From: Thermoanaerobacterales bacterium
GTDB lineage: Bacteria > Bacillota > Thermosediminibacteria > Thermosediminibacterales > Tepidanaerobacteraceae
Length of the DNA: 64,000 nucleotides
Assembly: GCA_012840135.1 (NCBI GenBank)
Contig: DUMA01000023.1
Location: forward strand, 1 to 64,000
Reading direction: 5' to 3'
Positions within the stretch are counted from its first letter, which is position 1; each line of letters starts with the position of its first letter. Under the pieces are notes generated by a model. It worked only from the letters and a program-made list of their open reading frames with translations, searched no databases and had not been told where the DNA came from. Below, one piece after another: positions 13,692-28,683 of the stretch. A program made the position numbers and the translations under genes.

Positions 13692-14072
13692 TTACACTTT
13701 CCTATCTATTATGAGCCCTACCTGCTTCCATATGTTTGCGATAAGATCTAAAAACTTTTCCGGCGGAATTTCGCTTATAAGCTCATTCGTATTCATATCG
13801 TAAATCCTGACAATTACCCTTTTGGTCTCTTCATGGATGGAAAACTCAAACCGGGTATTTTTTATCTCCAGGGCGAACTTTTTTAGCCCGTCGGTGAATT
13901 CTCTAAAATCCCCTTCCCCGGCGGTTTTTTTAAAATTCCCTTCTTCCGCCGCGGCCATTTCTGTAAAAAGAGGGGCTTTCAAATCCTCCATCGGAGCTTT
14001 TAATGCCGTCTCTGACCCGCTCACGGATCTTTCCACTTGAAAGTTTAAACTTTTTATACTCCCTATCTGCAC
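13692..14072 (-). CDS. flaG: FlaG family flagellar protein (YvyC)
   Basis: 126 aa; residues ~60-126 form the FlaG domain (LKFALEIKNTRFEFSIHEE, VIVRIYDMNTNELISEIPPEKFLD). Members influence filament length and are usually encoded next to fliD, as here. GTG start with AAGGGTGA seven bases upstream. It is the promoter-proximal gene of flaG-fliD-fliS-fliT; upstream the flagellar locus is interrupted by the accessory island. Confidence 0.88.
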   Translation of the reverse strand: MQIGSIKSLNFQVERSVSGSETALKAPMEDLKAPLFTEMAAAEEGNFKKTAGEGDFREFTDGLKKFALEIKNTRFEFSIHEETKRVIVRIYDMNTNELISEIPPEKFLDLIANIWKQVGLIIDRKV

Positions 14073-14331
14073 AAAACTTCACCCTTTTTAAATGGTTTCG
14101 GACAGCTTTGATACGGTTCACTATTCATATATTTTTTCAGCCAAATACTTTCTTTTACTTAAATTATCGGATTACATTTTTACTTAAATTAAATCGAAAT
14201 ATCACTTATTTTGGCAAATACAGGTTATTAAATTAATATACTTTGATATTCCTAATCGCTTATACAATTTTTCTCTTAAAATCTTTGTTTATTATTTAGA
14301 GCTAAAATTATTGTTTTCATTAAATTACTTA
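14073..14331. other. AT-rich spacer without recognised gene
   Basis: Left boundary of accessory island 2. No credible ORF, RBS-start pair or hairpin was seen. Confidence 0.5.
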
Positions 14332-14611
14332 TTATTCAATTACTACCACCGGAATATCTAACATCCTGGCAGCATCTATTAACTTTGAATCTTATTGCTA
14401 AGTTCTGTCTACATAGTTCTTATGTAGTATTTCGTACCTTTTAACTCTATTTCTGCAAATTTTAATTTGTTGATTTCTTCCCGGATCACTTCTGGTGAGG
14501 CATCGATAATTCCTGCCTTATTGAGCTCGTATTCAAGTTTTCTTTCCAGAAGAAATGCAAGAAAGCAAATGGCAAAGTATTATAAGCGTCGAGAATTTCT
14601 TCGGGTTTCAT
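14332..14611 (-). pseudogene. Transposase C-terminal remnant (IS1634-like), degenerate
   Basis: Read on the minus strand with several frame changes it gives MKPEEILDAYNT, then ERKLEYELNKAGIIDAS, PEVIREEINKLKFAEIE, LKGTKYYIRT and DSKLIDAARMLDIPVVVIE before a stop. The layout (helix, then an EVIREEI-type segment, then a short beta C-terminus) resembles the C-terminal end of IS1634/IS4-type transposases. The very 3' end recurs at 25718-25780. Only a fossil; family assignment is from memory. Confidence 0.5.
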
Positions 14612-14644
14612 ATTCTTTTCACTGGTTGTTATTTTTATAAACTA

Positions 14645-14673
14645 TTGTCACGTCTTATAAGACGTGTTATTAT
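14645..14673 (+). promoter_or_regulatory. hicAB promoter with embedded palindromic operator
   Basis: TTGTCA (14645-14650), 17-bp spacer, TATTAT (14668-14673). The perfect 18-bp palindrome CACGTCTTATAAGACGTG (14649-14666) fills the spacer. HicB antitoxins autorepress their promoter through a C-terminal DNA-binding domain, so this is the likely operator. Confidence 0.75.
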
Positions 14674-14697
14674 TTAATTGTCAGGAGGAGAAAGTAA

Positions 14698-14889
14698 ATG
14701 AAATCGTACTCATCAAGAGAAGTAATTAAAATACTCGAACAGAACTGATGGTACTTAAAAAGAGTAGTCGGAGACCATTACCAATACTCAGATGGCCATA
14801 GATTGGCAACAATTAGACACCCAGTTAAAGATATAGGAATAAAAAACTTAAAGAGTATTGAAAAACAAACAGGGATTAAATTCAATTAA
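14698..14889 (+). pseudogene. hicA: HicA mRNA-interferase toxin with in-frame TGA
   Basis: The frame gives MKSYSSREVIKILEQN, stop (TGA at 14746-14748), then WYLKRVVGDHYQYSDGHRLA, TIRHPVKDIGIKNLKSIEKQ, TGIKFN, stop. Normal HicA reads ..LEQNGW.., so one base change (GGA to TGA) interrupts the gene. The double-stranded-RNA-binding fold and the catalytic His (GDHYQY) follow the stop. SD AGGAGGAG is good. It is 45 nt upstream of an intact hicB. No other damage is visible, suggesting recent toxin loss. Confidence 0.88.
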
Positions 14890-14934
14890 TCCCCAACTTT
14901 TCTTTTCCTGAAAAACTAAAAGGAGCTTATTTTT

Positions 14935-15345
14935 GTGAAAAAGGATATTTACGTTTTTCCAGCTATATTAACTCAGTATGAAGGCAATATTGGCATTACA
15001 TTCCCCGATTTACCCGGTTGCGTGTCTAACGCTAAAAATATGGATGAGGCCGTCAAAAATGCCAAGGAAGCTTTAGCACTTCATCTTTTCGGTATGGAGG
15101 AAGATGGCATTGATATCCCTTCTCCTTCATCTATCAATAATTTAAAATTAGATTCAAATGAAATTCCATTACTGGTTGAAGTTTATATGCCTTTATACCG
15201 CAATGCTATTGAATCTTCAACAGTGAAAACAACTGTAACTATGCCTCAATGGCTAAAATCCTTAGCTGAAAAAAAGAATGTTAACTTCTCTCAATTGCTT
15301 CAATCAGCTTTAAAAGAATATTTAGGTATTCACGATAGGCAGTAA
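14935..15345 (+). CDS. hicB: HicB-type antitoxin
   Basis: 136 aa. N-terminal RNase-H-like HicB fold (VFPAILTQYEGNIGITFPD, LPGCVSNAKNMDEAVKNAKE, ALALHLFGMEEDG) that would bind HicA, and a C-terminal ribbon-helix-helix DNA-binding part (TVKTTVTMPQWLKSLAEKKN, NFSQLLQSALKEYL). GTG start with AAAGGAG 9 nt upstream. It should repress the promoter at 14645. With hicA broken it is an orphan antitoxin. Confidence 0.9.
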   Translation: MKKDIYVFPAILTQYEGNIGITFPDLPGCVSNAKNMDEAVKNAKEALALHLFGMEEDGIDIPSPSSINNLKLDSNEIPLLVEVYMPLYRNAIESSTVKTTVTMPQWLKSLAEKKNVNFSQLLQSALKEYLGIHDRQ

Positions 15346-15764
15346 TGGCCTTTTTAGGTTTTGCGATACAAATAATTGTGTTTACATTTTCACTGCAATC
15401 TGACTTTGACACTTTAGATCCTAAAACCCGCATAAAATGAGCATTCTTATCCTGAAAAAAGGCCAGTTTACCACCCCCTTTTGCCGGGCATCCGGAAAAG
15501 GGAACCCTGTCGTTTCTAGCTGAATATTTCATATTCCAGGCTTTTGTAATGCTTTCCAAAAGCTTGGAATGACAGGTATTTCAAGGCATGGTACCTAAGG
15601 CTCGGTAATTGAACTGTTCGCCTTCAGTATCACTATAAAAAACTTTGATTTCCCCAAGCTATCAACAACAAGTCAGGCTGAGCCATCGTTCAGCCTTTTG
15701 CTATGTTCTGAAATAAAAAAGTTGCACAATAATAAATTTATGCACGGCTTTATCAAGATTCTTA
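15346..15764. other. Intergenic stretch of probable insertion debris
   Basis: No start/RBS-supported gene. A stem-loop AGGCTGA-gccatcg-TTCAGCCT is visible near 15673-15694. A minus ORF at 15281-15559 runs into hicB and lacks an RBS. It precedes the IS left end and is probably mobile-element residue. Confidence 0.4.
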
Positions 15765-16881
15765 CTCAACTTTCGCAGATCAAACTATAGGTACAAACCT
15801 TGATAAATCAATAAAAATAAGCAAACAAAAATGCAAGAAGCTTCCTTTTTGTGATATAATGGAATTGGACAAAATATACAAGAAAGGAAGATCCTTGCAA
15901 TGTCCATTATATCACATTATAACGAAAATGAAAACCACTTTTCCTCAACTGTTGACAATTTTTTAAAAGAAAATCGTATAGGGTTCCTACTAAAACAGAG
16001 CAATTTCTATAAGGAAAAGGGAATTTCATGCTATGCTGTTTTCAAGTTTCTGTTCACTCTTGTATTCTCTGGTAAGAATCTTTACAGGATTCTGGAGTCG
16101 CAAAATTCCAATTTGCCCTTTGCCAAGGATGTCATATATAGATTCCTGAACTCTATATATTATAACTGGCAGAAGTTTCTTATGTTGCTGGCATCATCCA
16201 TAATCCGCAGCAAGTTGGTAGGTTTGACATCGGACAACCGTGTCAATGTCCTAATAATAGACGATTCTATATACAGTAGGAATAGAAGCAAGGTTGTCGA
16301 ACTTTTAGCCAGAGTAAGAGACCATGTGGCACAAAAATACGTTAAGGGGTTCAGACTTCTCACCCTTGGATGGTCTGATGGAAATACCTTCATCCCGCTC
16401 GGCTTCAACCTCTTGAGTGCACAAACTTCTGAAAACAGGTTGCAACCTATGAACAGTGAAATTGATAAAAGGAGCATAGGCTACAAGCGCCGAATTTCTT
16501 CACTCGCGAAAGAAACCGATGCCATGATAGACCTGCTAAAACAGGCAGTGGAGAATAACATCCCTGCAAAATATGTGCTGTTTGATAGCTGGTTTACTTA
16601 CCCAAGCATATTGTTGAAGATCCTCGGATTAAACCTCCACGTCATAGCCATGGTTAAGAACATGAAGAAAATTTATTACAGTTTTCAAGGCAAAAGAATG
16701 AGCCTTCAGTCTATATATTCTTGCGTAAGAAAAAAACGCGGTAAGGCAAAGATACTTTCATCAGTTGTAGTTGGTATCGGCACTGACAATGATGGTAATG
16801 AAGTTCTTGCAAAGATTGTATTTGTAAGGGACTCGCAACAGATCTCGCAACTGGCTTGCCATTATTTCTACAGATACAACG
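15765..16881 (+). mobile_element. IS4-family element, left-end fragment (copy A)
   Basis: Begins with the terminal repeat CTCAACTTTCGCAG (15765-15778), followed by about 120 nt of leader and the transposase gene. It is cut off at 16881, exactly where a second copy of the same terminal repeat starts. The right end of this copy is missing. The family identification is by transposase character. Confidence 0.7.
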
Positions 16882-16934
16882 CTCAACTTTCGCAGGAACA
16901 TAAAGCGAGCTTTTCCCTGATAAAAGTGGGCTAA
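15900..16934 (+). pseudogene. Truncated DDE transposase, IS4 family
   Basis: 344 codons open, of which about 315 are genuine. DDE features: LIIDDSIYSRNRSKVVELLA (first Asp), FRLLTLGWSDGNTFIPL, and YVLFDSWFTYPSILLKIL (second Asp). The Glu-containing C-terminal YREKWxIE-type region is absent. Near 16835 the frame slips: RSRNWLAIISTDTTLN, expected for the protein, is in another frame. Then the gene meets an inverted IS end at 16882. Overlapping upstream sequence AGAAAGGAAG serves as SD. Inactive as a transposase. Confidence 0.85.
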
Positions 16935-17045
16935 CAAGACATAAAGTGATCCAAAAACTCACTTATTGCCTCTTTAGAAAGCATAAGTTTTTCACTCAAA
17001 GCTGTTTTAAGAGCATCCATTAAAAGCTGTAAAGCTTCAAGAAAC
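16882..17045 (-). mobile_element. Inverted right-end fragment of same IS (copy B)
   Basis: On the minus strand the sequence encodes LEALQLLMDALKTALSEKLM then LSKEAISEFLDHFMSC and a stop, which looks like the C-terminus of the same transposase type. After ~35 nt it ends in CTGCGAAAGTTGAG, the exact inverse of the left-end repeat. It directly abuts copy A and cuts the 3' end of the Uma2 pseudogene. Confidence 0.65.
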
Positions 17046-17585
17046 TTTATGATCTTCAAAAATAGATACTCTTACCTTGTCTCCTTGCGTATATATATCA
17101 GGACGTCCATATCTTCAATTCTCCTGTAAAACAAACACATTCAAGATTTTACTTTCAGGCTCCACTATCCAGTATTCTTTTACGCCTTATTTTTCATATA
17201 AGTTAAACTTATGCAGTTTATCTTTCTGAGCTGTCGAAGGCGAAGTGATTTCTACAGTCAAATCAGGCGCTCCCGTGCATCCTCTTTCATCAAGCTTGGA
17301 TTCATCGCACACGACAACTATGTTGGGCTGAACCACGGTTTTTATCTCTTTCTCGTCCTTTTCATCTCCATCTGGAAACCTCACATCAAAAGGTGACATA
17401 TAAACTTCGCAAGATTTATCCTTTAGATAATCGAAGAATTGATAAAAAAGCTGCCCTAGGATCTTTTGATGGGTTCTAGAAGGGGATGTCATCAGGTAAA
17501 CCCGGCCATAAATCAATTCTATCCTCTCATTTTCCGACCAGGTCAAATAATCTGCATAAGTATAAATTTTATCTTCTTTTGGCAA
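17040..17585 (-). pseudogene. Uma2-family (DUF820) gene with two in-frame stops
   Basis: Good start (MPKEDKIYTYADYLTW, RIELIYGRVYLM, PFDVRFPDG, VVQPNIVVVCDESKLDERGC, TGAPDLTVEITSPSTAQKDK), then FNLYEK followed by TAA where the family has a Tyr codon. Translation continues in frame through GVKEYWIVEPESKILNVFVL, hits a TGA, and continues RYGRPDIYTQGDKVRVSIFE until IS sequence takes over near 17040. It thus has two nonsense codons and a lost 3' end. Differently broken from the copy at 7311. Confidence 0.85.
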
Positions 17586-17680
17586 TGGCTATTCGCACCT
17601 TCTTTCGAAAAAACTATCTTTTATAAAATTGCCGTCTACTAATTTGCTGCCTCTATAAATACTTATAAATACTAAATACA

Positions 17681-18136
17681 TTAATTGCTATTCTTTTTGA
17701 GGATTAAAAGAAACTCGTTAGCCGCTTTCGCAAGAAGTTCTGCTCTTTTTAGCACGAAATCCCCGTATACCTGTTTGAGATCTTCTTTTCCCCAGCTTTT
17801 TTCTACGATTTCCCTTCCTGCCGATGCGTCCGCAAAAACACCAGGTATAAAATGTTCGTCGAGTTCTCCTCTAGAAATATTATACTCGAGCACGTACTTC
17901 CAAGTAGGCTTTCCTGAAAGTCTACTTACATTCGTTCGCTCAAACGACCCTACAGGATACTCGCGGTATAAAGATTCTGCAAGCAATTTTACCTGCTCGG
18001 GATCCCAAACAAAATCCCTCTGAAACTCCGGAACATCGATTTCCTTATTGACGGCTCGCCGAACTATTTCCTTTACTTTCAACTGCTCAAGAGCTATAAA
18101 ACCCCTCCTTCTTAATAAAAACGACGTAATTACCAA
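17681..18136 (-). pseudogene. DUF262 (GmrSD/ParB-like) protein, internally deleted remnant
   Basis: 151 aa open frame. Its N-terminal half shows the DUF262 signature (KEIDVPEFQRDFVWDPEQVK, LLAESLYREYPVGSF), the DGQQR-less start of a ParB/Srx-fold NTPase-nuclease. The rest (FADASAGREIVEKSWGKEDL, QVYGDFVLKRAELLAKAANE) resembles the C-terminal end of such proteins, which are normally 350-700 aa. The catalytic middle is missing. It overlaps the DUF7662 gene by about 50 nt in another frame, and its true start is unclear. DUF262 proteins are common in defence islands. Confidence 0.6.
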
Positions 18137-18359
18137 GGCTTACTTCCTCGACCTTCCACCCCGCCCTCAACCAGGCATAGGCCTGCACATGTCCTCCGTT
18201 AGCCCACCACGGACGATGCTTTCTTGCCGAAGGCGGCAAACTATCTGCTATAATTTTTTCGATATCCTCAAAGGAAAGTTTTACCCGGAAAGAATCCTGA
18301 CTCATAAGATATTCTTCCAAAGGGTAATATTTACCTTTGTTTAACTTTCTCCTATGCAA
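18087..18359 (-). CDS. DUF7662-type small protein
   Basis: 90 aa. It matches the small domain with pattern KYYPLEEYL, SFEDIEKIIADSLPPSARKH, RPWWANGGHVQAYAWLRAGW, which I recognise as DUF7662; function unknown. TTG start with AGGAGG 9 nt upstream, 25 nt after the helicase stop codon, so it is co-transcribed with the helicase-nuclease. Intact. Members often sit beside restriction or defence genes, in line with this context. Confidence 0.7.
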   Translation of the reverse strand: MHRRKLNKGKYYPLEEYLMSQDSFRVKLSFEDIEKIIADSLPPSARKHRPWWANGGHVQAYAWLRAGWKVEEVSLGNYVVFIKKEGFYSS

Positions 18360-18384
18360 GGTAGGATACCTCCTATCACGGTTT

Positions 18385-21300
18385 TCAAATCTCCTCCCAC
18401 TCCTTGCGAAGCAGTGCGGCCATCCTTATAATTTCTTCTACCAGTTCGCTTCGGGTATCATTCGTATTATTTTCTGGTAGATAGCCTTCAGGTTTTATGC
18501 CGTGAGCATTAAGCTGCTCAAACACCCATTTCATGGTTCCCTCAGGATCCCTGTAAAACTCACTGCCGCGGATTCGGATGAATTTCCATCCCAGGCGTTC
18601 CAGGACAGCCTGGCGAGCCAAATCCTCCGGCAATTTTTCTATGGGATGCCATCTGTCGCCGTCGCATTCTATCGCTATTCTATTGTCTGCCCATTCTACA
18701 ACCAGATCTATAAAATAGTAGCCGACCTGCCACTGCGCATGGGTGCGGTAGTAGCCTGCTGCTATAAGGCGCTTTAAAACTTCCTGTTCAAAAGGAGATT
18801 GTGTTCTAGCACTTTCACGGGCTAAAGCCCTAGTAACTGCTTCCGGATCTAAAGCGTATTCGATTAAACGGCGGCGGAGATCGCCTTCTTTTAAATCATT
18901 ATATGGATCTAAGGAATACACCACCCACATCTGGTCTTTAGCCCTGCTGGCAGCTACATTAAACCGCTGTCTAAAACGGTCGGTTTCGCGCAAGGGAAGA
19001 GGAGTTCCCGTCGAAGCGTCTACAAGGGACAAAAATACCACATCCCTTTCGTCGCCCTGAAATTGAGCAGCGGTGCCGCACAAAATATTTCGGCTCTTGT
19101 ATTCTTGTTCTGACAAATACCTTCGAAGCAATGAATCTATGTATCGAGCCTGCTCTTCTCCCACCAAAGATATTACGCCAAAGGTCTTATTTTTGTAAGC
19201 CGGATGCTTCGCCGCCGCTACCAACAGCGACGCCAACTCTATTGCCTCTTTTTTATTTATCTTTCTTTCAACGATTGCACCTTGCACCCGGTAGGGTACC
19301 ACGTGAGATTTGAGCGGTACCTTGCCAGATTCCCTCAAAGGTCTTATACTGCCGTTGTAAGAAAGGTGGTTACTGAACTGGATAATTTCCGGTACGCATC
19401 GGAAATGCTCTACCAGCATGATGGTGCCGCCGAAGGACTCCCGGGCAATATCGTAAATCGAGCGCCTTCCGTCATAAAGTATGGCATTTGGAATATCCTT
19501 TAAGTATTCCGCTATGAGATTCTTTATTTTTTCCAACTCTTGTCCGATTCCTTCCGGGCTTACCTGTTCATGGTCACCCACAACAACTACTTTTTCAGCC
19601 AAATACAGCGCAGCGAGGGCCAACGAATCGCACTGGCTTGCTTCATCGATGATAACCACATCAAAGCGCGTCGTCTCTGGTTCGAACTGTTCTACCACGC
19701 GGGAAAGCGGCATAATCCACACCGGCACAGCATCACGGGCAATGTTTAACTTCCTGGCCGCCTCCGCCCTCAAATAGGGAGCAAGTTTAGTGTATCCTTT
19801 ACCAAGTTTTTTCACAATACCCAACCATCCCATCAAAGCCTGCTGCTGTTCAAGTGTCGTCCTTTTCAGCTGCGCTGCCCAGGCCTTGCATTCTATAAGC
19901 TCAGCTGTGATCTGCCTTAGAGCTTCGGTTCGCCTGTTTATAAGCCCCTGCAATTCCGATACCGAAACCGATGTGCGCCTTTTGAGTTCCTCCTCGAGTA
20001 GCCTCCACCGCCAAGCCTCCACGGGGTCCCCCGGCAATTCCGCCTTGCCGTGGACGCCCTGCCGTGTGCGAATAGTCGCTGCCCAACCAGGTGCGAACTG
20101 CTCTAGTTTCGTTAAAAGCTCTTCTCTTCTCTTAAGGTGGACCTTACGTCTATAAAGGTCCAAAAGCTTTTCATAGGCCGTTGAATAGTTTTCTGCATCC
20201 AAATTTTTAACAGCCTTATACAAACGAGTTACAATTACACTCTTATTCAATTTCAGAATCTCTCTTAACACTTTTTCTAGGTTTTCAATTTCGACGTGCG
20301 CCCAATAATGGCGGATATTCGATATCCTCGATTCGATAATTTCAAGCAATTCTTCCATCAACACTTTGCCCAAAGTTCTGAGTTCTTCAAAAGGAGAACT
20401 TTCGGGTTCACGTTGCTTTATAAAAGCTTCCCAATCAAAGCCGTAGCTTTTTAATTTCTCAATCAATGGCGAAAGTCTTTTGTCGCTAAATTCGAGCAAC
20501 CTCTGGATTCGGCCCAAACGCTGAACGGCAGCCCGTTCAGGTTCTTCACTCTGTTTATCAAGTTCGGAACCACCATGCCTTACCACAAGGTAATCCCAGC
20601 GCAATATGAGTTCACTGCGCAATCTTGATAGTCTTGCCAGTGCCGCCAGAGCCTGAAAGTGCTGGATCTTGCTTGGTTGTCCCGACGCTACTTTGGCATT
20701 CTGAATGAATCTTCGCCATGCGGGACGAAAAATTAGGGAAAGGCCGCCTATACTACCACGGTGCGACGCTTCCTCCGCCAGCTCAACGGCCAATCGCTCC
20801 TGTTCTTCAACAGGAATATTGCCGGCCAACCGCGGGCGATGGAGAATGAAAAGCTCCTGCGAGTTCGCTTTCAATTCCTCAATATCTCCCAGCAATTTTA
20901 TGAGATTATTCCACGGTTCGCAATAGGCTTTGCCCTTAGTTCCAGAATCTACAGCTGCAAGTTCCCAATCTTCAGCCTCCAAAAGTTCCTTTCCGATTTG
21001 TTTTGCTTCCTTTGCAAGTTCATCCAAATACCCAACAATTTCTTGCCCTTTTTTCTCATCATCCCAAAACTCCGAACTGAGCAAATTAACCGGATGCGAC
21101 AAAATTCCACTCAATTCGGAAAAACGCTCGGGAGACATGAGGTTTTCCGGAGAAGGGAGTCCAAAAAGCAACTCTCCCTCTTCTTCGGGCGTTATAGCGG
21201 CATTGGTTTGATAAAGCTCTACTAATTCTGGAATAGAAAGGGGTAGAGGTTGGCCCGTCTCGACGGGGCCCGGTATCCAGTCATGGACCCCTTTACCTTT

Positions 21301-22884
21301 CACAACTAGCCTTGCCGCCTCACTTGGGTCATACGACTCGCCGCCTAATACAATGGGCCTGTACTCGTTGCCAACGGCATCTAAAAGGCGCTGCTGCAAA
21401 GTCTGAATTTCCCTCTTCAACTGACTTCTCTGGATAGATAAATCTTTTGCCTTTTCTTCAAAAGTTCTTGCATCGCCTCGACTTAGCTGCTCGTTGATAT
21501 GCCATACGGCCTCTTCTAGCTGCTTTCGGCTCTCCAAATCGTTGTCCAGTACGCTAACACAAAGGGGCCTCAGCGGTTCGACTATTTTGTCTCGAAGCAT
21601 CCTTAATGCTTTTGAGGTATGGGCGGTGACAAGGACTGATTTGCCCTGTGCGAGGAGATGGCCGATGAGATTTGCAATTGTGTGCGTTTTCCCGGTCCCA
21701 GGGGGGCCCTGGACCAGAACTGCACCGTAACTTTCCAATCTTTCGGCTATTTTCAATTGTTCCTTATTCCAAGGCTTGCTAAAAAGAATATCATCAGGTT
21801 CGCTCCCCGGAAGTCCGGTATACTCTGTTTCCGTCGCCTCAGTTTTCCCGTCCGACAAATCTATTCCAACGATCCTCGACAAAAACGAGGGCAAGTCTTT
21901 ACGCTCCTTCAAATCCTCCAAAATCCTATCCAGCACAAGTGCAAAACCTAATGTCCGTTGTCTTAAGAAAATCAAAGGCGATCTTCCTATAACCGGTTGT
22001 ATCGATCCTTCCGGCGGTAACTTTTCCCCGATAAAGTCACCGTGGGGCGAAAGAGCTACTACAAGTCGTCTGAGAAAGCCTGAAGTATCGTCCCCTCCCA
22101 GCGGATGAAATCCACTCTTGCTCCATTCATCCTGTACACTTGCTAAATTGTTCAAGTCAATTTCTGTCCCATAGCGAAATGCGGCAGTATAAAGCTGTGG
22201 ATTTGCTCCTGTATCAATAATGCGAAATTCTGGTACATCGGTGTCAAATTCCAATTGCACCGGCATCAAAAGCACAGGATAATATATTTCTCTCCCTTCA
22301 ATTTGCTAACTTAAAATACCATCCCCTAGCATCAACTCTACGCGTTCACCTTCACGCTGGATATACCCGTACAATTCGTAGAGGGTTTCGAAAACCTTCA
22401 TGGCCTGCCTTGCCGGCCGCTCATTTGCCGCCCATTCTGTCCACAATTTCCTCCAGCGTTCGAATTCCTCCACGCGTTTTTTATCGTCTTCGAATCGTTC
22501 CACAGCGGAAGCCCCGTCTGGTAATTCTACATTTTTACTTGCTATCGTAAATACATCCTGCTTAAAAGGATCTTCCCAGCTGGGCTGGAGCCATTCCTTG
22601 ATGGATTCGGGAGGTGCCGGCGGTTTTGTGAGCTTGGGCCGCCGGACTCTAAGGATAAATCCATTTCCTTCTGTTTCGGATGCTGAATTTTCCCCTTCTT
22701 CTGAAGTAAAAAAGTATGTACGGCTAATAGAAGGATGATCGGGAAGCTCGGAAAACCAAAGCCGCCAGCTATGTTCCTTTATATTTGTTGGAAAAGAACA
22801 GCGAATACGGGAAAATTCACGAAGAAAGCTATATAATCTTATCAGGCGTTCTCTTGCCGTCTGGAGTTTTTCATTTACACTCAT
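18385..22884 (-). pseudogene. SF1 (DNA2/Upf1-type) helicase with C-terminal Vsr/DUF559 nuclease, split by amber codon
   Basis: One frame of about 1,500 codons is interrupted only by TAG at 22306-22308, between ..MLGDGILS and QIEGREIYYPVLLMPV... Before the stop: N-terminal regulatory region (SD GGGGGT, ATG 22884). After it: Walker A VQGPPGTGKTHTIANLIGHL, coiled-coil insert, Walker B VVIIDEASQCDSLALA, motif III VVGDHEQVSPEG, motif IV-VI (VEHFRCVPEIIQFS, TAAQFQGDERDVVFLSLVDA, RFNVAASRAKDQMWVVYS). The C-terminal PD-(D/E)XK nuclease shows SPFEQEVLKRL, YFIDLVVE and IAIECDG. The TAG probably replaces TGG (Trp). Internal re-initiation at the GTG at 22275 could still give a 1,296-aa helicase. It is the core of the decayed defence-type cluster. 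Confidence 0.88.
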
Positions 22885-22928
22885 GTATATACCCCCATTA
22901 GTGGCCATTATTTACTCAATAAAAGTAA

Positions 22929-24704
22929 CTACACACCTACCACAATATAAGTTCCGATTCTGTTAATGTTCAACATTTTTGATGATGTTATTTCGTTCAA
23001 ATTTAAATCAAATTCAAAGGGAAAAAGCGAATAAAGTTTATCTATTTCGGCAAAATCCAGGTAACTTCTATTCGATGCCTTTAAATAGCACAAAATCAAA
23101 AAGCATTTTATGGAACTGTCGGAGATATATATCTCCCTGCCGGACGTATAGAGTCCTTTTCCCTCGCTTATTATCAGTCCCCACTCTTTCAAGCTGAATA
23201 TAATATTGTTAATCGAATATAAAATCGTCTGCCTTTCTCCCCACTTTTCGAAAATCTTTCTCCTTATGTTTTCCAGTTTGAATTTTTCATCCAAATACAG
23301 GCTTTTACCGATTAGATAGATGATATCGTTAAAAATAGGGAAGCTTAGCATCATCAAACCGTAGTGCAGCGCTATTTTTTCTTCGGCATTTCCTTGGGCA
23401 GTCCATCTCCCTTCCACTCTATAACCTGTTTTTCTCTCAATAAATCACCGAAATCGCCGTATTTATTTTGGTAAATCGCAATCCTATTTGACAATGTATC
23501 CAACACAACCTCCTCTTTTACGCCTCCCTGGCCCACCGTCGATATGTTTCCGTGGTCCGAAGTTATGAAAATCTCATAGCCCCTTTGCTCTGATTCTTCT
23601 AAGAACTCCGCCAAAAAGCCGTTTTTCAAGAAAATCTCGATATGATATTATAAAGACCTATATAATCGAAAAATTCCTGATGAGCATAAATATCTATTAT
23701 ATCGGCAACTATACCTATAATTTTTATACCGCTTCTTATACTTTCCAGCAAGGCCTCCTCTTTAAATGTCTTTATACTCCTCAAATAAGCGATTTCACTT
23801 TCTTTATACCCGTGCTCGATGTAAAATTTCTTAAACCGCTTTTCATCGTGATCGGTCGAAAATAACGTATCCTTAAAGCTGACCGGTATCTCTCCCGAAA
23901 AAAGAGCCTGCCTCGAAGCAGAAGTTATGGTGGGAATCCAGGCAAAGCAAGCTTTATCCTCCAGAAGAAAACTGCGCTCTTTTAAGAAATTTTTTATGAT
24001 ACACCAATTGAACTCCGACATGCCGTCAAAGACAATCAAAATTACCTTATCCTTCCCTTCTCTTCTTAACAAGTTTACGATGTAATGTTGAACATGATGC
24101 ACCATGACCGGCGAACTTGTAAAAGACAAGAAGGTAAGTTTGCCGTAGTTGTCCATAAGCCAATTTTTAAACTTTTCATTTATCCTAAGGTTTTCTTAAG
24201 TCTCCGCCAAAACTTTCAAGAAATATTCTCCACTGCTCCTGCAAAAAATCGAAAAACGCTTCCTTTCCCTTTAAAATTTTTTCTACGATATCCTTCTCGT
24301 TTACAGTATTTAAACTCTTTCTAATAAAGCGCCGCAATACAGGTGGAAGCTCGATTCCTTTGTAGTAGAGCTTCAACAGTTTTTTTACCAAATCTCCCAG
24401 TGAATTTATTAAAGCCGCATCGACTTGAAAAACGCTTTTTAATATAAAAGCGCAGGTTTCATCAAAGTCTAGCTTTTTTTTGAGCTTTGAAGATCTCTCA
24501 TATATCACGTCGTAATATCCCCTTTCTATCTCCATCAAAACCACGACATCCTAATTCCTCGCCAGGCCTTGCGTAGACCAAACAATCATCTTTTATAATT
24601 CCTCTTGTCGAAGCAATTATTTTCTTGTACCTGCTTATGTTTTTTAATGTTCCGATAGGATCCAACTTCAAATGCTTTTCAAATAAAATCTCCGTGTTGT
24701 CCAC
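22929..24704 (-). pseudogene. pglZ: PglZ-domain protein (BREX-type phosphatase) with four frameshifts
   Basis: Pieces in three frames, in order: LDPIGTLKNISRYKK..VYARPGEEL; DVVVLMEIERGYYDVIYE.. LPPVLRRFIRKSLN.. AFFDFLQEQWRIFLES; INEKFKNWLMDNYGKLTFLS, then the alkaline-phosphatase-like core VILIVFDGMSEFNWCII and IPTITSASRQALFSGEIP; then EIFITSDHGNISTVGQGGV; then NAEEKIALHYGLMML and a winged C-terminal tail. Breaks are near 24550, 24180, 23632 and 23395. The last two can be repaired by one base in T or A runs. BREX-3-like PglZ proteins share the FLQERW segment. GTG start at 24704 overlaps the coiled-coil gene upstream. Non-functional as it stands. Confidence 0.85.
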
Positions 24705-24847
24705 AAGCCTTGCAACCTACCTTCGAATTCAACTTTTAAACGCTCAATAGACTGCTCCATCTCGCGGCTCGAATATTTCAAGCTTTTTTCCGTTACATTT
24801 ATTCTTTCCTTCACCTTCGCAATTTCTCGGTCTATCTGAGCCAGCAT
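24668..24847 (-). pseudogene. Coiled-coil protein, C-terminal fragment upstream of pglZ
   Basis: 59 codons: MLAQIDREIAKVKERINVTE, then SLKYSSREMEQSIERLKVEF and GRLQGLWTTRRFYLKSI. Helical, charged, overlapping the pglZ start by 37 nt, so it was the preceding operon gene. Upstream of 24847 the frame hits a stop at the breakpoint with the oppositely oriented dynamin-like remnant, showing that its N-terminal part was deleted. Confidence 0.5.
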
Positions 24848-24859
24848 CAGATTAAAAGC

Positions 24860-25648
24860 CTAGAAGACGCACTAAAGGAAATCGGAGGGAAAACCGAAGA
24901 CATTCTCGCCGTGTTAAACAGGATAGACCTTATAAATTCCTCAAAAAGGGAACTGGTATTGGAGGAATCCTATCGCATTTTCGGAAATGTATTTTGCGAT
25001 ATCGTGGCTTTTTCCGCAAAACAAGCTCTTTTATCCATAGAAAGCGGCGATACCGAGGGGCTAAGACAGAGCGGCTACTTTGTCTTTTTGGAATCCATAG
25101 AAAAAAACTTCCTATCTAAAGCCCTGCATCTTCAAAAAAATCCAAACTTCTCGGATTTAAAGGATTTACCTCCGAGGTCGTAAGAATCACCGACGAATAT
25201 CAAAAAAGGTTAGAAAACGACGAAAAAAGGCGAGCAAACCTTTTTTCTGCCTTTCTCTCCATTCTGCTGTCCGTTACTTTTATAGGAGCTTTAAGCACAT
25301 TCCTCCCCATAGGACTTATAGTAGGAACTATTTTCGCCCTTTTCAACAAATTTTCCGGCAAAAAAAAAGGACATCGACCTTTCGATGAGCATCGACGTAG
25401 AAAATATAAGGCGGCGCTTTGTCACCGAATTACTAGAACCCCAGGTTATACTTCAGATAAAAAATCTTTCTGAAAAGCTCATAGAAAAGCGCTTTGAACA
25501 GATCTTTACTGAAAGCTTCAAGGGGTACACCCGGGAAAAACTGAGCCGTTTTTTGCAGGAGCTGAAAGAATACGTGGAAAGGGTAGACGATATTTTGGAA
25601 AGAGTTAGGAGTTTTAATTTATCGACTCTTGCACTCAAAGGTAGCTGA
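24860..25648 (+). pseudogene. Dynamin-like GTPase, 3' remnant
   Basis: Starts inside the G domain: LEDALKEIGGKTEDILAVLN-RID (NRID fits the G4 N/TKxD motif). Then come ESYRIFGNVFCDIVAFSAKQ and, after a frameshift in a seven-A run (25134-25140), GFKGFTSEVVRITDEYQKRL. A hydrophobic hairpin of about 34 residues (FLSILLSVTFIGALSTFLP..IGLIVGTIFALF) resembles the membrane paddle of bacterial dynamins. A further frameshift in a nine-A run (25360-25368) leads into a helical stalk (NIRRRFVTELLEPQ.. YTREKLSRFLQELKEY). G1-G3 are missing. Orientation is opposite to pglZ. Confidence 0.65.
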
Positions 25649-25717
25649 ATACGTCCATGACACGATATGGAATAGATGGAATTCATTCTATGCCGTTTAA
25701 AATTCAATGGTAACTAC

Positions 25718-25780
25718 TTAGTCAATCGCTGCCACCGGAATATCTAACATCTTGGCAGCATCTATTAACTTTGAATCTTA
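25718..25780 (-). pseudogene. Transposase C-terminal tail, second copy
   Basis: Encodes DSKLIDAAKMLDIPVAAID-stop, nearly identical to the tail of the remnant at 14332. Only about 60 bp remain. Confidence 0.5.
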
Positions 25781-25804
25781 TATAGGCTTCCTTATTATGT
25801 AGAT

Positions 25805-26269
25805 TTATGCTTTTTCTGATTGTTTCATTTCCTCTTCTTTCAGCTTTCTTAATTGATGAATATTTATCATTGGCATTCTTACAGGGGGGTTAATTCCTGC
25901 CAGTGCTGTGGCAGACAAGACATATGATCTCGTGAACTGGGAAAGAGCAACAACCCCATTCAATTCCAGCATTTTTTTAAAATCTTCTTGTTTTAACGCA
26001 TTTTTATCGCCTATAAACTTCCCTTCGTAGACAATATTTATTTTAAATAAAATGCTTTTACCTTTTTTGGCAACAAAATTGGATTTAAACTGAACTACAC
26101 CATAATAAGCCTCATCATGTTCTTCTAGTTTTATAACTTCATAATCAAAATCATTCTTAATATTTACTTTTTCTTTGTTCTTACCCACTTCTTTAGTTTC
26201 CAGTTTAAAATTCACAACTCTACTTGCAATCATCTGAAAAATTGCAATTATTTTATTTGAGTCTATCAT
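25805..26269 (-). CDS. SecB-like chaperone of a toxin-antitoxin-chaperone (TAC) module
   Basis: 154 aa. SecB fold features: strands YYGVVQFKSNFVAKKGK and LFKINIVYEGKFIG, then the C-terminal LSQFTRSYVLSATALAGINP followed by PVRMPMINIHQL, equivalent to the YARE..PxLxPIN ending of SecB. Monoderm bacteria lack an export SecB, but SecB-like proteins encoded third in HigBA operons act as chaperones that fold and protect the antitoxin. The ATG overlaps the antitoxin stop by 4 nt (ATGA), giving tight coupling. Intact. Confidence 0.8.
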   Translation of the reverse strand: MIDSNKIIAIFQMIASRVVNFKLETKEVGKNKEKVNIKNDFDYEVIKLEEHDEAYYGVVQFKSNFVAKKGKSILFKINIVYEGKFIGDKNALKQEDFKKMLELNGVVALSQFTRSYVLSATALAGINPPVRMPMINIHQLRKLKEEEMKQSEKA

Positions 26270-26631
26270 GCTGCTTCACCTACAAAATTAAAATTCAACA
26301 TATTACCTTCAGTAATATCCCATACAGTTACATTTTGCTTCTTCTCCCTAAATATAACTTTAAACTCCAGACCTAATGCCGATGATATTTTCCATAACTG
26401 TTCAATAGATGGATTATACTCTCCGCTTTCCAGTTTGGAAACCATCGCCTGGGTGCATCCTAATTTTTGTGCTAAATCCTTCTGTGTTAAATTATTTTTT
26501 ACTCTATAGTTTATTAAAGTAACAGCTATATCAACTAATATATCATCTAATTCAAAATATTTTTTTTCTTCATCATCAGCTATTTCATCGATTAAATCAT
26601 AGGGATTCCCCAGCATCATTTTATAATCCAT
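26266..26631 (-). CDS. XRE-family antitoxin, HigA type
   Basis: 121 aa. Central helix-turn-helix (NLTQKDLAQKLGCTQAMVSK, LESGEYNPSIEQLWKISSAL) for DNA and operator binding. The C-terminal extension (about residues 100-121, VTVWDITEGNMLNFNFVGEA) is hydrophobic and lies where the chaperone-addiction sequence sits in TAC antitoxins. It is the second gene of the toxin-antitoxin-SecB operon and likely represses the palindromic promoter at 27128. The ATG at 26631 is supported by an upstream GGAGG. Confidence 0.85.
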   Translation of the reverse strand: MDYKMMLGNPYDLIDEIADDEEKKYFELDDILVDIAVTLINYRVKNNLTQKDLAQKLGCTQAMVSKLESGEYNPSIEQLWKISSALGLEFKVIFREKKQNVTVWDITEGNMLNFNFVGEAA

Positions 26632-26674
26632 ATTTATACCTCCATTTCAGCCCTTTCCTTTTAATTATTCCCTT

Positions 26675-27115
26675 TTAACTTAGTTTTAGACCTGTCCCCA
26701 TAAGCTCATTTATCCTTTCTTTGGCAACTTCGATTGCTTTTGCATAACTTTTGCTGCTCGTTTTCTTTTTATTTTCTTTCTCCTGGAAACAATTTAATAA
26801 TATTACAATTTCTCTTCCTTTATCGTAAAAGAAAGAAAATAATATCCGTATATTTTGTTTATCAACAAACCTTATAGAATATATTATTCCATTATCTTTT
26901 AGTTGCTCAAATGATTTCTGGTAAATACATTGTTTTTTTAGTTTTTCTAAAAACGATAATTTGATTTTATATTTTCGCGAAAAATTTTTCTTTTGGCCGC
27001 TCTCTTCTAATAGGACTTTTAACTCCTCGTTAAATGAAAAATAAGTAAAAATATAATTCGAGTTAAATTCTTCTGGATAAATAATTTTACATTTTCCCTG
27101 CTTTTCCTCCGTCAT
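26675..27115 (-). CDS. HigB/RelE-superfamily toxin (Gp49-like)
   Basis: About 146 aa. The C-terminal half has the RelE/Gp49-like fold: GIIYSIRFVDKQNIRILFSF, DKGREIVILLNCFQEKENKK, and the SYAKAIEVAKERINEL helix that follows the K-K-T motif in DUF891 toxins. Expected to be a ribosome-dependent mRNA endonuclease. The first ~50 residues are less typical. The frame opens to a TTG at 27163, but the ATG at 27115 follows AGGGGTG and lies just past the promoter. First gene of the TAC operon. Confidence 0.8.
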   Translation of the reverse strand: MTEEKQGKCKIIYPEEFNSNYIFTYFSFNEELKVLLEESGQKKNFSRKYKIKLSFLEKLKKQCIYQKSFEQLKDNGIIYSIRFVDKQNIRILFSFFYDKGREIVILLNCFQEKENKKKTSSKSYAKAIEVAKERINELMGTGLKLS

Positions 27116-27127
27116 CCTTGCACCCCT

Positions 27128-27157
27128 ATTATATAACTTATAAGTTATATTAGTCAA
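27128..27157 (-). promoter_or_regulatory. TAC operon promoter with 20-bp palindromic operator
   Basis: TTGACT (27157-27152), 18-bp spacer, TATAAT (27133-27128) on the minus strand. The perfect palindrome ATATAACTTATAAGTTATAT (27131-27150) spans the spacer and part of the -10. Antitoxin binding there would shut the promoter. The predicted start site is only about 6 nt before the toxin ATG. Confidence 0.8.
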
Positions 27158-27192
27158 GGCCAATTTATTTAATCAAAGATATATTTTTCGGT

Positions 27193-27531
27193 CTAATATT
27201 GTAATACCTCGTCGTTTTGATTCACACCGTAAGGTTTACATCGATTTTTCACATAATTTATGATTCGATATTTCTCAACATTTTCCTTCATACGGGGGGA
27301 AGATTTTAAATAAAAAAGCCGGAGAATAATCTCCAGCATAGTCAACGACCTCTTCACAAGGATGGTCTGGGCATCACCAGTGGACAATGAACGACACATA
27401 GCCGCGAATGTCGACTTTCCTCGCCCGTTCTCGGCGTATATCACATTGATTTTTTTCAGGGCGAGCGCTCCAGAAGGAAGCGCGTTATGAAGCAAACCTA
27501 TACCCTTTACAATGATGAACTTTTCAATCAT
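27193..27531 (-). pseudogene. AAA ATPase (RloC/AAA_13-like), N-terminal fragment
   Basis: 112 codons. Begins MIEKFIIVKGIGLLHNALPS.. LKKINVIYAENGRGKSTFAA, with a clear Walker A (ENGRGKST) as in RloC/PrrC-like and other SMC-related defence ATPases. After about residue 60 similarity stops, and the frame ends where normal proteins continue for several hundred residues. SD GGAGGT precedes the ATG. It overlaps the end of an upstream remnant by 8 nt. Probably another casualty of island decay. Confidence 0.65.
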
Positions 27532-27634
27532 ATCGCACCTCCGTAATATTTGATTGGGAAGGAAACGTACCGGATTTCATATATTCTTTCAGTTTCTGGT
27601 TGAATATGCCAAAGAGGATGCCGTAACTTTGCAT
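27524..27634 (-). pseudogene. C-terminal remnant of unknown gene upstream of ATPase fragment
   Basis: Open frame MQSYGILFGIFNQKLKEYMK then SGTFPSQSNITEVRYD, ending in a TGA that overlaps the ATPase start. This looks like operon coupling, and no function can be assigned. The remaining spacer to 27800 shows no gene. Confidence 0.3.
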
Positions 27635-27804
27635 AATTGTCAGGGCTCGAGTTGGAGCGGATTCGACCAATTCCTTTTTTGAATAGAAGTGCAAATTTTA
27701 AATTGCAAAGGCGGCTATACTTTTCGTATGTTTTTTTATCGATATCTATCCTTATTTTAGAGACAATGAAAAAAGGCAGGGGCTCGCTGCAATTAAAAAT
27801 ATGA

Positions 27805-27821
27805 CCCCGGTATTACCGGGG
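27805..27821 (-). terminator. Flagellin gene terminator
   Basis: CCCCGGT-aat-ACCGGGG followed on the minus strand by CATATTTTTAATT, 29 nt after the hag stop. Confidence 0.85.
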
Positions 27822-27849
27822 CCTCTTAAGCTTAATTTTAACATTATTT

Positions 27850-28683
27850 TTATCCTAGCAACTTCAGCACCGACTGGGGAAGCATGTTGGCCTGGGCTAG
27901 CATTGCCGTGGCAGCTTGATTCAATATGCTGTTTTTGGTGAATTCCATCATTTCTTTTGCCATATCTACATCACGGATACGAGATTCAGCAGCGGTGAGG
28001 TTTTCGGATGCAGTACCAAGATTGTTTATGGTATGTTCAAGGCGGTTCTGCAATGCGCCAAGTTGGCCTCTTGTTGAAGATACAGTATTAATAGCCTCAT
28101 CGAGCTTGGAAAGCATATCACTTGCGGAAGTTGCGGTGAAATTTTCATCAACACATACATAAGTATTGTTAACTGTTAATGAACTTGCATCCATATTAGC
28201 AAGTGTTAAATCAATCGTTTGACCGCCATTTGCGCCAATTTGGAACACAATGCTTGTTGCTGCATAGTCGCCGCTTAATAAAGATTTGGTGTTGAATTGC
28301 GTTTGTCTTGCTATTCTCGTAATCTCATCTTGTAAAGCTGTTATTTCTTTCCCTATATTTTGTAAGTCTGTGTTGCTGTTCGTACCGTTACCTGCCTGAA
28401 CAACAAGTTCTCTCATTCTCTGAAGTATTGAATGAGTTTCATTTAATGCGCCTTCTGCTGTTTGTATAAGGGAAATTCCATCTTGAGCATTCCTCTGGGC
28501 TTGATTTAAACCTCTTATCTGTCCTCGCATCTTTTCACTGATGGCAAGGCCCGCAGCATCGTCGCCGGCTCTGTTTATCCGATAGCCTGATGACAATTTT
28601 TCCAACGATTTCTGCATATTTGTGTTGTTTACGGTCAACTGCCTATAAGCATTCAAGGCACTGATGTTGTGATTGATAATCAT
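27850..28683 (-). CDS. hag: Flagellin
   Basis: 277 aa filament protein made only of the conserved D0/D1 parts plus a short middle. N-terminal MIINHNISALNAYRQL, LEKLSSGYRINRAGDDAAGL, AISEKMRGQIRGL and C-terminal SRIRDVDMAKEMMEFTKNSI, LNQAATAMLAQANMLPQSVL. Secreted by the flagellar export apparatus; FliS (11281) is its chaperone and FliD (11704) its cap. It has its own sigma-D promoter, a CsrA-type leader and a terminator. It stands between two accessory islands; the glycosyltransferases upstream may modify it. Confidence 0.97.
   Translation of the reverse strand: MIINHNISALNAYRQLTVNNTNMQKSLEKLSSGYRINRAGDDAAGLAISEKMRGQIRGLNQAQRNAQDGISLIQTAEGALNETHSILQRMRELVVQAGNGTNSNTDLQNIGKEITALQDEITRIARQTQFNTKSLLSGDYAATSIVFQIGANGGQTIDLTLANMDASSLTVNNTYVCVDENFTATSASDMLSKLDEAINTVSSTRGQLGALQNRLEHTINNLGTASENLTAAESRIRDVDMAKEMMEFTKNSILNQAATAMLAQANMLPQSVLKLLG

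Follow-up and report, generated by a model that had tools for sequence, protein, structure and literature searches.

The stretch at positions 17681 to 25648 of the window (the whole 64,000-nucleotide piece of DNA that we analyzed, on contig 19 of a 3.18-Mb genome) is very probably a pseudogenized type III BREX operon followed by two appended restriction modules. The window copy is the remnant of a type III BREX member and not a working member, as only pieces of brxF, pglZ, and brxA are left of the six type III core genes (brxF, brxC, pglXI, brxHII, pglZ, and brxA). It is a dead relic, and its value lies in a near-intact relative and in its chromosomal site. The initial annotation had listed pglZ, an SF1 helicase-Vsr nuclease, DUF7662, a DUF262 remnant, and a dynamin-like fragment. 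We recovered all of these (pglZ and the dynamin in pieces, the nuclease domain as Vsr/MTES_1575, and the DUF262 gene truncated), and the list of open reading frames (ORFs) and family profiles agreed with its gene order and strands. It had suggested that the set might be an undescribed combination outside the standard BREX layout; pglZ, brxA, and brxF are instead what is left at either end of a type III BREX operon after loss of its central genes.

The closest matches to the window's helicase lie within the same order, and the named one among them is Thermovorax subterraneus DSM 21563, which has been assigned to the Thermosediminibacterales (PMC9679718). Its locus (L026 and L032) carries, on one strand, brxF (166 amino acids [aa]), brxC (1232 aa), pglX (848 aa), brxHII (886 aa), pglZ (624 aa), brxA (235 aa), the helicase-Vsr gene (1506 aa), DUF7662, and a GmrSD-type gene (a DUF262 protein of 576 aa). 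PADLOC matched all six type III BREX core genes, in order. Up to the helicase, the genes are separated by 0 to 20 bp or overlap slightly; between the helicase and DUF7662, about 0.37 kb is inserted that is missing from both the window and the metagenome-assembled genome (MAG) contig L021. An in-frame stop in DUF7662 is the sole broken frame of the nine-gene run. The expectation that intact versions exist in relatives was thus largely correct, and this near-intact run was found in one copy only; elsewhere, the modules occur with other partners.

Nucleotide alignment of the window with Thermovorax revealed four deletions, one frameshift, and one in-frame stop, as anticipated by the description of the locus as decayed defense genes. 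The first deletion, of about 9.3 kb, runs from brxF into pglZ and takes brxC, pglX, and brxHII; the second removes 0.30 kb inside pglZ; the third removes 0.38 kb from pglZ into brxA; and the fourth removes 1.28 kb, in frame, inside the DUF262 gene. The sequences at the junctions, aligned by blastn and then read base by base, have at most 1 to 2 bases in common, and we therefore infer that the deletions were illegitimate and did not arise by recombination between repeats.

Each of the three BREX remnants, all on the minus strand, could be placed on this map. What remains of brxF (24556 to 24706) is roughly 50 codons close to its 3′ end, with 92% blastn identity to Thermovorax brxF and a match to the PADLOC BrxF profile (PDLC02497, E = 2e-19); the largest deletion, which also took the start of pglZ, joined this remnant to that gene. 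The pglZ gene itself (23391 to 24556) survives in three pieces, recognized by matches to NF033449 and PDLC02556 and by the Thermovorax alignment. It has lost its N-terminal part and 0.30 kb at 24187, is frameshifted near 23626, and is fused at its 3′ end to brxA. The matching family model, NF033449, identifies the type III BREX form of PglZ, so that for pglZ a truncated known BREX subtype, the outcome that the initial annotation had set against its own reading, is what was found. The brxA gene (22929 to 23391) lacks its first 80 codons owing to the 0.38-kb deletion, which also covers the pglZ 3′ end; the ORF at 22929 to 23417 matches the PADLOC BrxA profile (PDLC02437, E = 2e-52, profile positions 81 to 233 of 238) and is 94% identical to residues 81 to 235 of Thermovorax BrxA.

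Both brxA and the brxF remnant had been overlooked earlier. The ORF at 24498 to 24704, taken then for a coiled-coil fragment overlapping pglZ, begins as the BrxF remnant and continues as pglZ; a coiled-coil stretch does exist, further upstream at about 24707 to 24860. The lack of BrxC and PglX, from which a nonstandard layout had been deduced, is real, but it stems, like that of BrxHII, from the deletion, the window and Thermovorax aligning on both sides of the junction at 24556. The window copy is unable to work as BREX because the methyltransferase, the BrxC ATPase, and the GmrSD motifs are gone.

Further type III BREX loci were noted in this lineage. The window genome holds a second remnant on another contig (L097, G000:C37, 8009 to 11782); there, an in-frame fusion links BrxF to the C-terminal part of PglX, no brxC is left, and pglZ is split between two frames. 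In the same genus and family, type III BREX occurs without brxHII between pglX and pglZ (L198 and L086, G001:C1 at about 1330600 to 1340200; L080, G006), and the G001 pglX is split over two frames.

The dynamin piece (24842 to 25650, plus strand) is separate from the BREX locus. It is a fragmented remnant of an Eleos-like dynamin with 35 to 47% identity to proteins of 662 to 719 aa in five genomes, in which two dynamin genes stand in tandem. Two of the cassettes were checked, and in both the dynamin pair is preceded by a gene for a coiled-coil protein of about 310 to 330 aa, and the proteins of one cassette match LeoBC and LeoA of Eleos. The coiled-coil stretch at 24707 to 24860 gave no match to the coiled-coil gene of these cassettes. 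The dynamin-like GTPase, previously counted as part of the set, is unrelated to it and probably belongs to an Eleos-like cassette. We consider it highly improbable that coiled-coil, PglZ, helicase-nuclease, DUF7662, DUF262, and dynamin form an undescribed non-BREX system: all six families are indeed neighbors in the window, but PglZ is flanked by BrxA and BrxF remnants, the corresponding Thermovorax locus contains the complete BREX core and no dynamin, and homologues of the dynamin are found in another kind of cassette.

The first of the two modules that accompany the BREX operon is a UPF1-like SF1 helicase that ends in a Vsr-type (MTES_1575) nuclease (18385 to 22908, minus strand; Pfam AAA_11, AAA_12, and MTES_1575). 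An in-frame TAG at 22306 to 22308 divides it into ORFs of 200 aa and 1296 aa, both spanned by the single 1506-aa frame of Thermovorax at 88 to 90% identity. Apart from this stop, the catalytic motifs are kept, with about 690 residues from Walker A to Walker B. The dN/dS ratio across three copies is 0.11 to 0.14; the helicase was therefore under selection until recently. The architecture, including a long insertion after Walker A, is shared with CnuH of type III-B CoCoNuT, and the helicase could in principle be a CnuH whose McrBC partners lie elsewhere or were lost. We regard this as improbable, since no McrC (PF10117) is present in the window genome, Thermovorax, or G021, and 18 of the 24 helicase-bearing genomes lack it; moreover, the described III-B systems are chiefly alphaproteobacterial, and a fold search with the model of the helicase N-terminal region (pLDDT 79) gave no match.

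The second module pairs DUF7662 with a GmrSD-type gene. DUF7662 is an open frame of 90 aa (18087 to 18359, minus strand; PF24698, E = 1e-18) whose AlphaFold model (pLDDT 87) has a winged-helix-like order of elements; searched against the PDB, the model had no significant match, and many of the weak ones were winged-helix proteins. Of 398 genomes of the phylum, 17 encode the family, often in other settings. A DUF262/GmrSD gene is its neighbor in five genomes, of which four are closely related. It also stands alone or is fused to a tautomerase (Pfam match) or, with labels assigned by reading the sequences, to GIY-YIG, MGMT-like, and GNAT-like domains. These fusions and stand-alone copies rule out DUF7662 as a dedicated GmrSD partner. 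Searches for the family in phages and in the literature returned nothing. Read in the same way, two loci (L162, 1477 to 2526; L159, 1465 to 2523) carry DUF7662 at the C terminus of O6-alkylguanine transferase-like proteins, 5′ of an sbcD-like gene. The GmrSD-type (DUF262) gene of the window (17681 to 18136, minus strand; PF03235) consists of two ends, as aligned to the 576-aa Thermovorax protein; the in-frame loss of about 1.28 kb, covering codons 66 to 492, takes both the DGQQR and the HHIYP motifs. The Thermovorax protein has the DUF262 domain (PF03235, E = 5e-29) with VDGQQR at residue 89, and HHIYP is present in it, with a GmrSD_C match (E = 0.046) below Pfam's cut-off.

We then looked at whether these modules belong to BREX. 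Homologues of the helicase were found in 20 of 61 genomes (that of the window and 60 relatives, threshold 1e-3) and in 34 of 398 genomes of the phylum (1e-40), and about 20 neighborhoods outside the window lineage were read. The helicase homologues had no constant partner in them: BREX adjoined the helicase once, as type I (G104/L147, with BrxA, BrxB, BrxC, and PglX), and GmrSD also once (G269/L142). In G043 (L095), a type III BREX has as its divergent neighbor a more distantly related helicase of the PDC-S37/Hhe type. After brxA, other type III BREX loci carry other genes, for example a JetC-type gene (L093) or extra SNF2-type helicases (L088, L090, and L091), and in G020, DUF7662 and DUF262 come after a type III restriction-modification (RM) system. 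Because the helicase and DUF7662/DUF262 occur elsewhere with other defense genes, they are separable and look like auxiliary modules.

These observations lend weight to a possibility that we take seriously, while rating it somewhat short of even: that BREX III, helicase-Vsr, DUF7662-GmrSD, the Eleos-like cassette, and a toxin-antitoxin-chaperone set piled up in a hotspot, each arriving and decaying independently, so that BREX and the modules would be functionally unconnected. The lack of a fixed helicase partner, the position of DUF7662-DUF262 after type III RM in G020, and the differing contents of the insertion site across genomes (see below) all fit such a pile-up. Against it, brxA and the helicase lie 20 bp apart on the same strand in both the window and Thermovorax, and the order helicase-DUF7662-DUF262 recurs in three genomes (window, Thermovorax, and the short MAG contig L021, which ends within the helicase). 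Judging from spacing and strand, the chances that the modules may act jointly with BREX in Thermovorax are roughly balanced. The stronger proposal, that the nine-gene run is one integrated system with helicase-Vsr and DUF7662-GmrSD as co-regulated second and third effectors, is unlikely.

We also examined the chromosomal site. The island is bordered by flaG (13692 to 14072, minus strand; matched in 16 of the 18 related genomes) and the flagellin gene fliC (27850 to 28683, minus strand; matched in 15 of the 18). In five relatives, the two genes are less than 0.3 kb apart (G001, of the same genus, G003, G006, G010, and G012); in others, the distance is about 3.4 kb (G013), 6 kb (G004), 10 kb (G014), 23 kb (G015), and 45 kb (G016), the G016 filler being largely metabolic, not defense, by gene reading. 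A type III RM system follows the flagellin gene in G020 and G019, and G019 also has brxF, pglX, pglZ, and brxA pieces of the same BREX beside it. In Thermovorax, the BREX island adjoins flagellin, and flaG is on another contig. Across genomes (window 13692 to 28683; L173 to L186, L031, L104, and L102), the gap contains type III RM, BREX III, helicase-Vsr, or SNF2 genes. The fliC-flaG interval is thus a candidate defense hotspot and a simple landmark for locating defense islands in the Thermosediminibacterales.

Further genes lie on or beside the island. A Gp49/HigB-like gene, a helix-turn-helix antitoxin, and a SecB-like gene, likely a toxin-antitoxin-chaperone set, adjoin it in three genomes, on differing sides (window 25805 to 27163; L026, 2193 to 3553; L175, 6577 to 7934). 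The window also contains a DDE_5 transposase (15900 to 16934), a Uma2 nuclease-like fragment (17187 to 17585), a HicB-like antitoxin (14935 to 15345), and an AAA_13/PDC-S06-like N-terminal fragment (27193 to 27531).

In the intact unit, PglX would methylate host DNA, and BrxC, BrxF, BrxA, BrxHII, and PglZ would recognize and block unmethylated incoming DNA, with PglZ probably the nuclease. By analogy with BrxU beside BREX, the GmrSD-type enzyme may cut phage DNA with modified cytosines. The helicase would probably translocate on nucleic acid, its Vsr domain cutting as a backup, and DUF7662 would probably serve as a small partner that binds DNA. What had been a puzzling mixed gene set becomes a known system whose damage can be identified. 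The near-intact operon of a thermophile, with two different restriction nucleases downstream of type III BREX, offers a natural test case for layered defense.

Among known systems, the closest to the dynamin remnant of the window is Eleos (LeoA/LeoBC): the remnant corresponds to one of the two dynamins in the intact cassettes, whose proteins match LeoBC and LeoA. Unlike Eleos, those cassettes add a coiled-coil gene of about 310 aa, and the window has only one fragment, not linked to BREX. Like CnuH of CoCoNuT III-B, the helicase is a UPF1-like SF1 enzyme with a long insertion after Walker A and a fused Vsr nuclease (architecture according to PMC11090510), but the window lineage has no McrB/McrC (CnuB/CnuC) partner, and the missing McrC speaks against membership. 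The PADLOC PDC-S37, Hhe, and Mokosh helicases share the same features, the Vsr-type nuclease being C-terminal, whereas the window helicase matches PDC-S37, Hhe, and MkoC over part of its length only, with scores well under NCBIfam's cut-off for Hhe. With GmrSD and BrxU, the latter a GmrSD homologue that complements BREX (PMC10952713), the Thermovorax protein shares a DUF262 domain with DGQQR, an HHIYP-bearing C-terminal region, and a place next to BREX; it differs in its type III BREX neighbor, in the DUF7662 ahead of it, and in a C-terminal domain under the Pfam cut-off, and the window copy lacks both motifs. As for type III BREX itself, Thermovorax has the six core genes in the same order, and the window keeps pieces of brxF, pglZ, and brxA; what differs is the two restriction modules after brxA and, in the window, a broken core from which brxC, pglX, and brxHII are gone. 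The accessible portions of the literature held no description of type III BREX combined with helicase-Vsr and DUF7662-GmrSD. According to the available part of a 2026 survey (PMC12839542), BrxHII is found in 77% of type III BREX systems, and auxiliary nucleases, including PD-(D/E)XK and GmrSD types, adjoin the core genes in all BREX types. To that extent, the pairing of BREX with auxiliary nucleases, also of the GmrSD type, is on record, and the near-intact version is a modest new variant.
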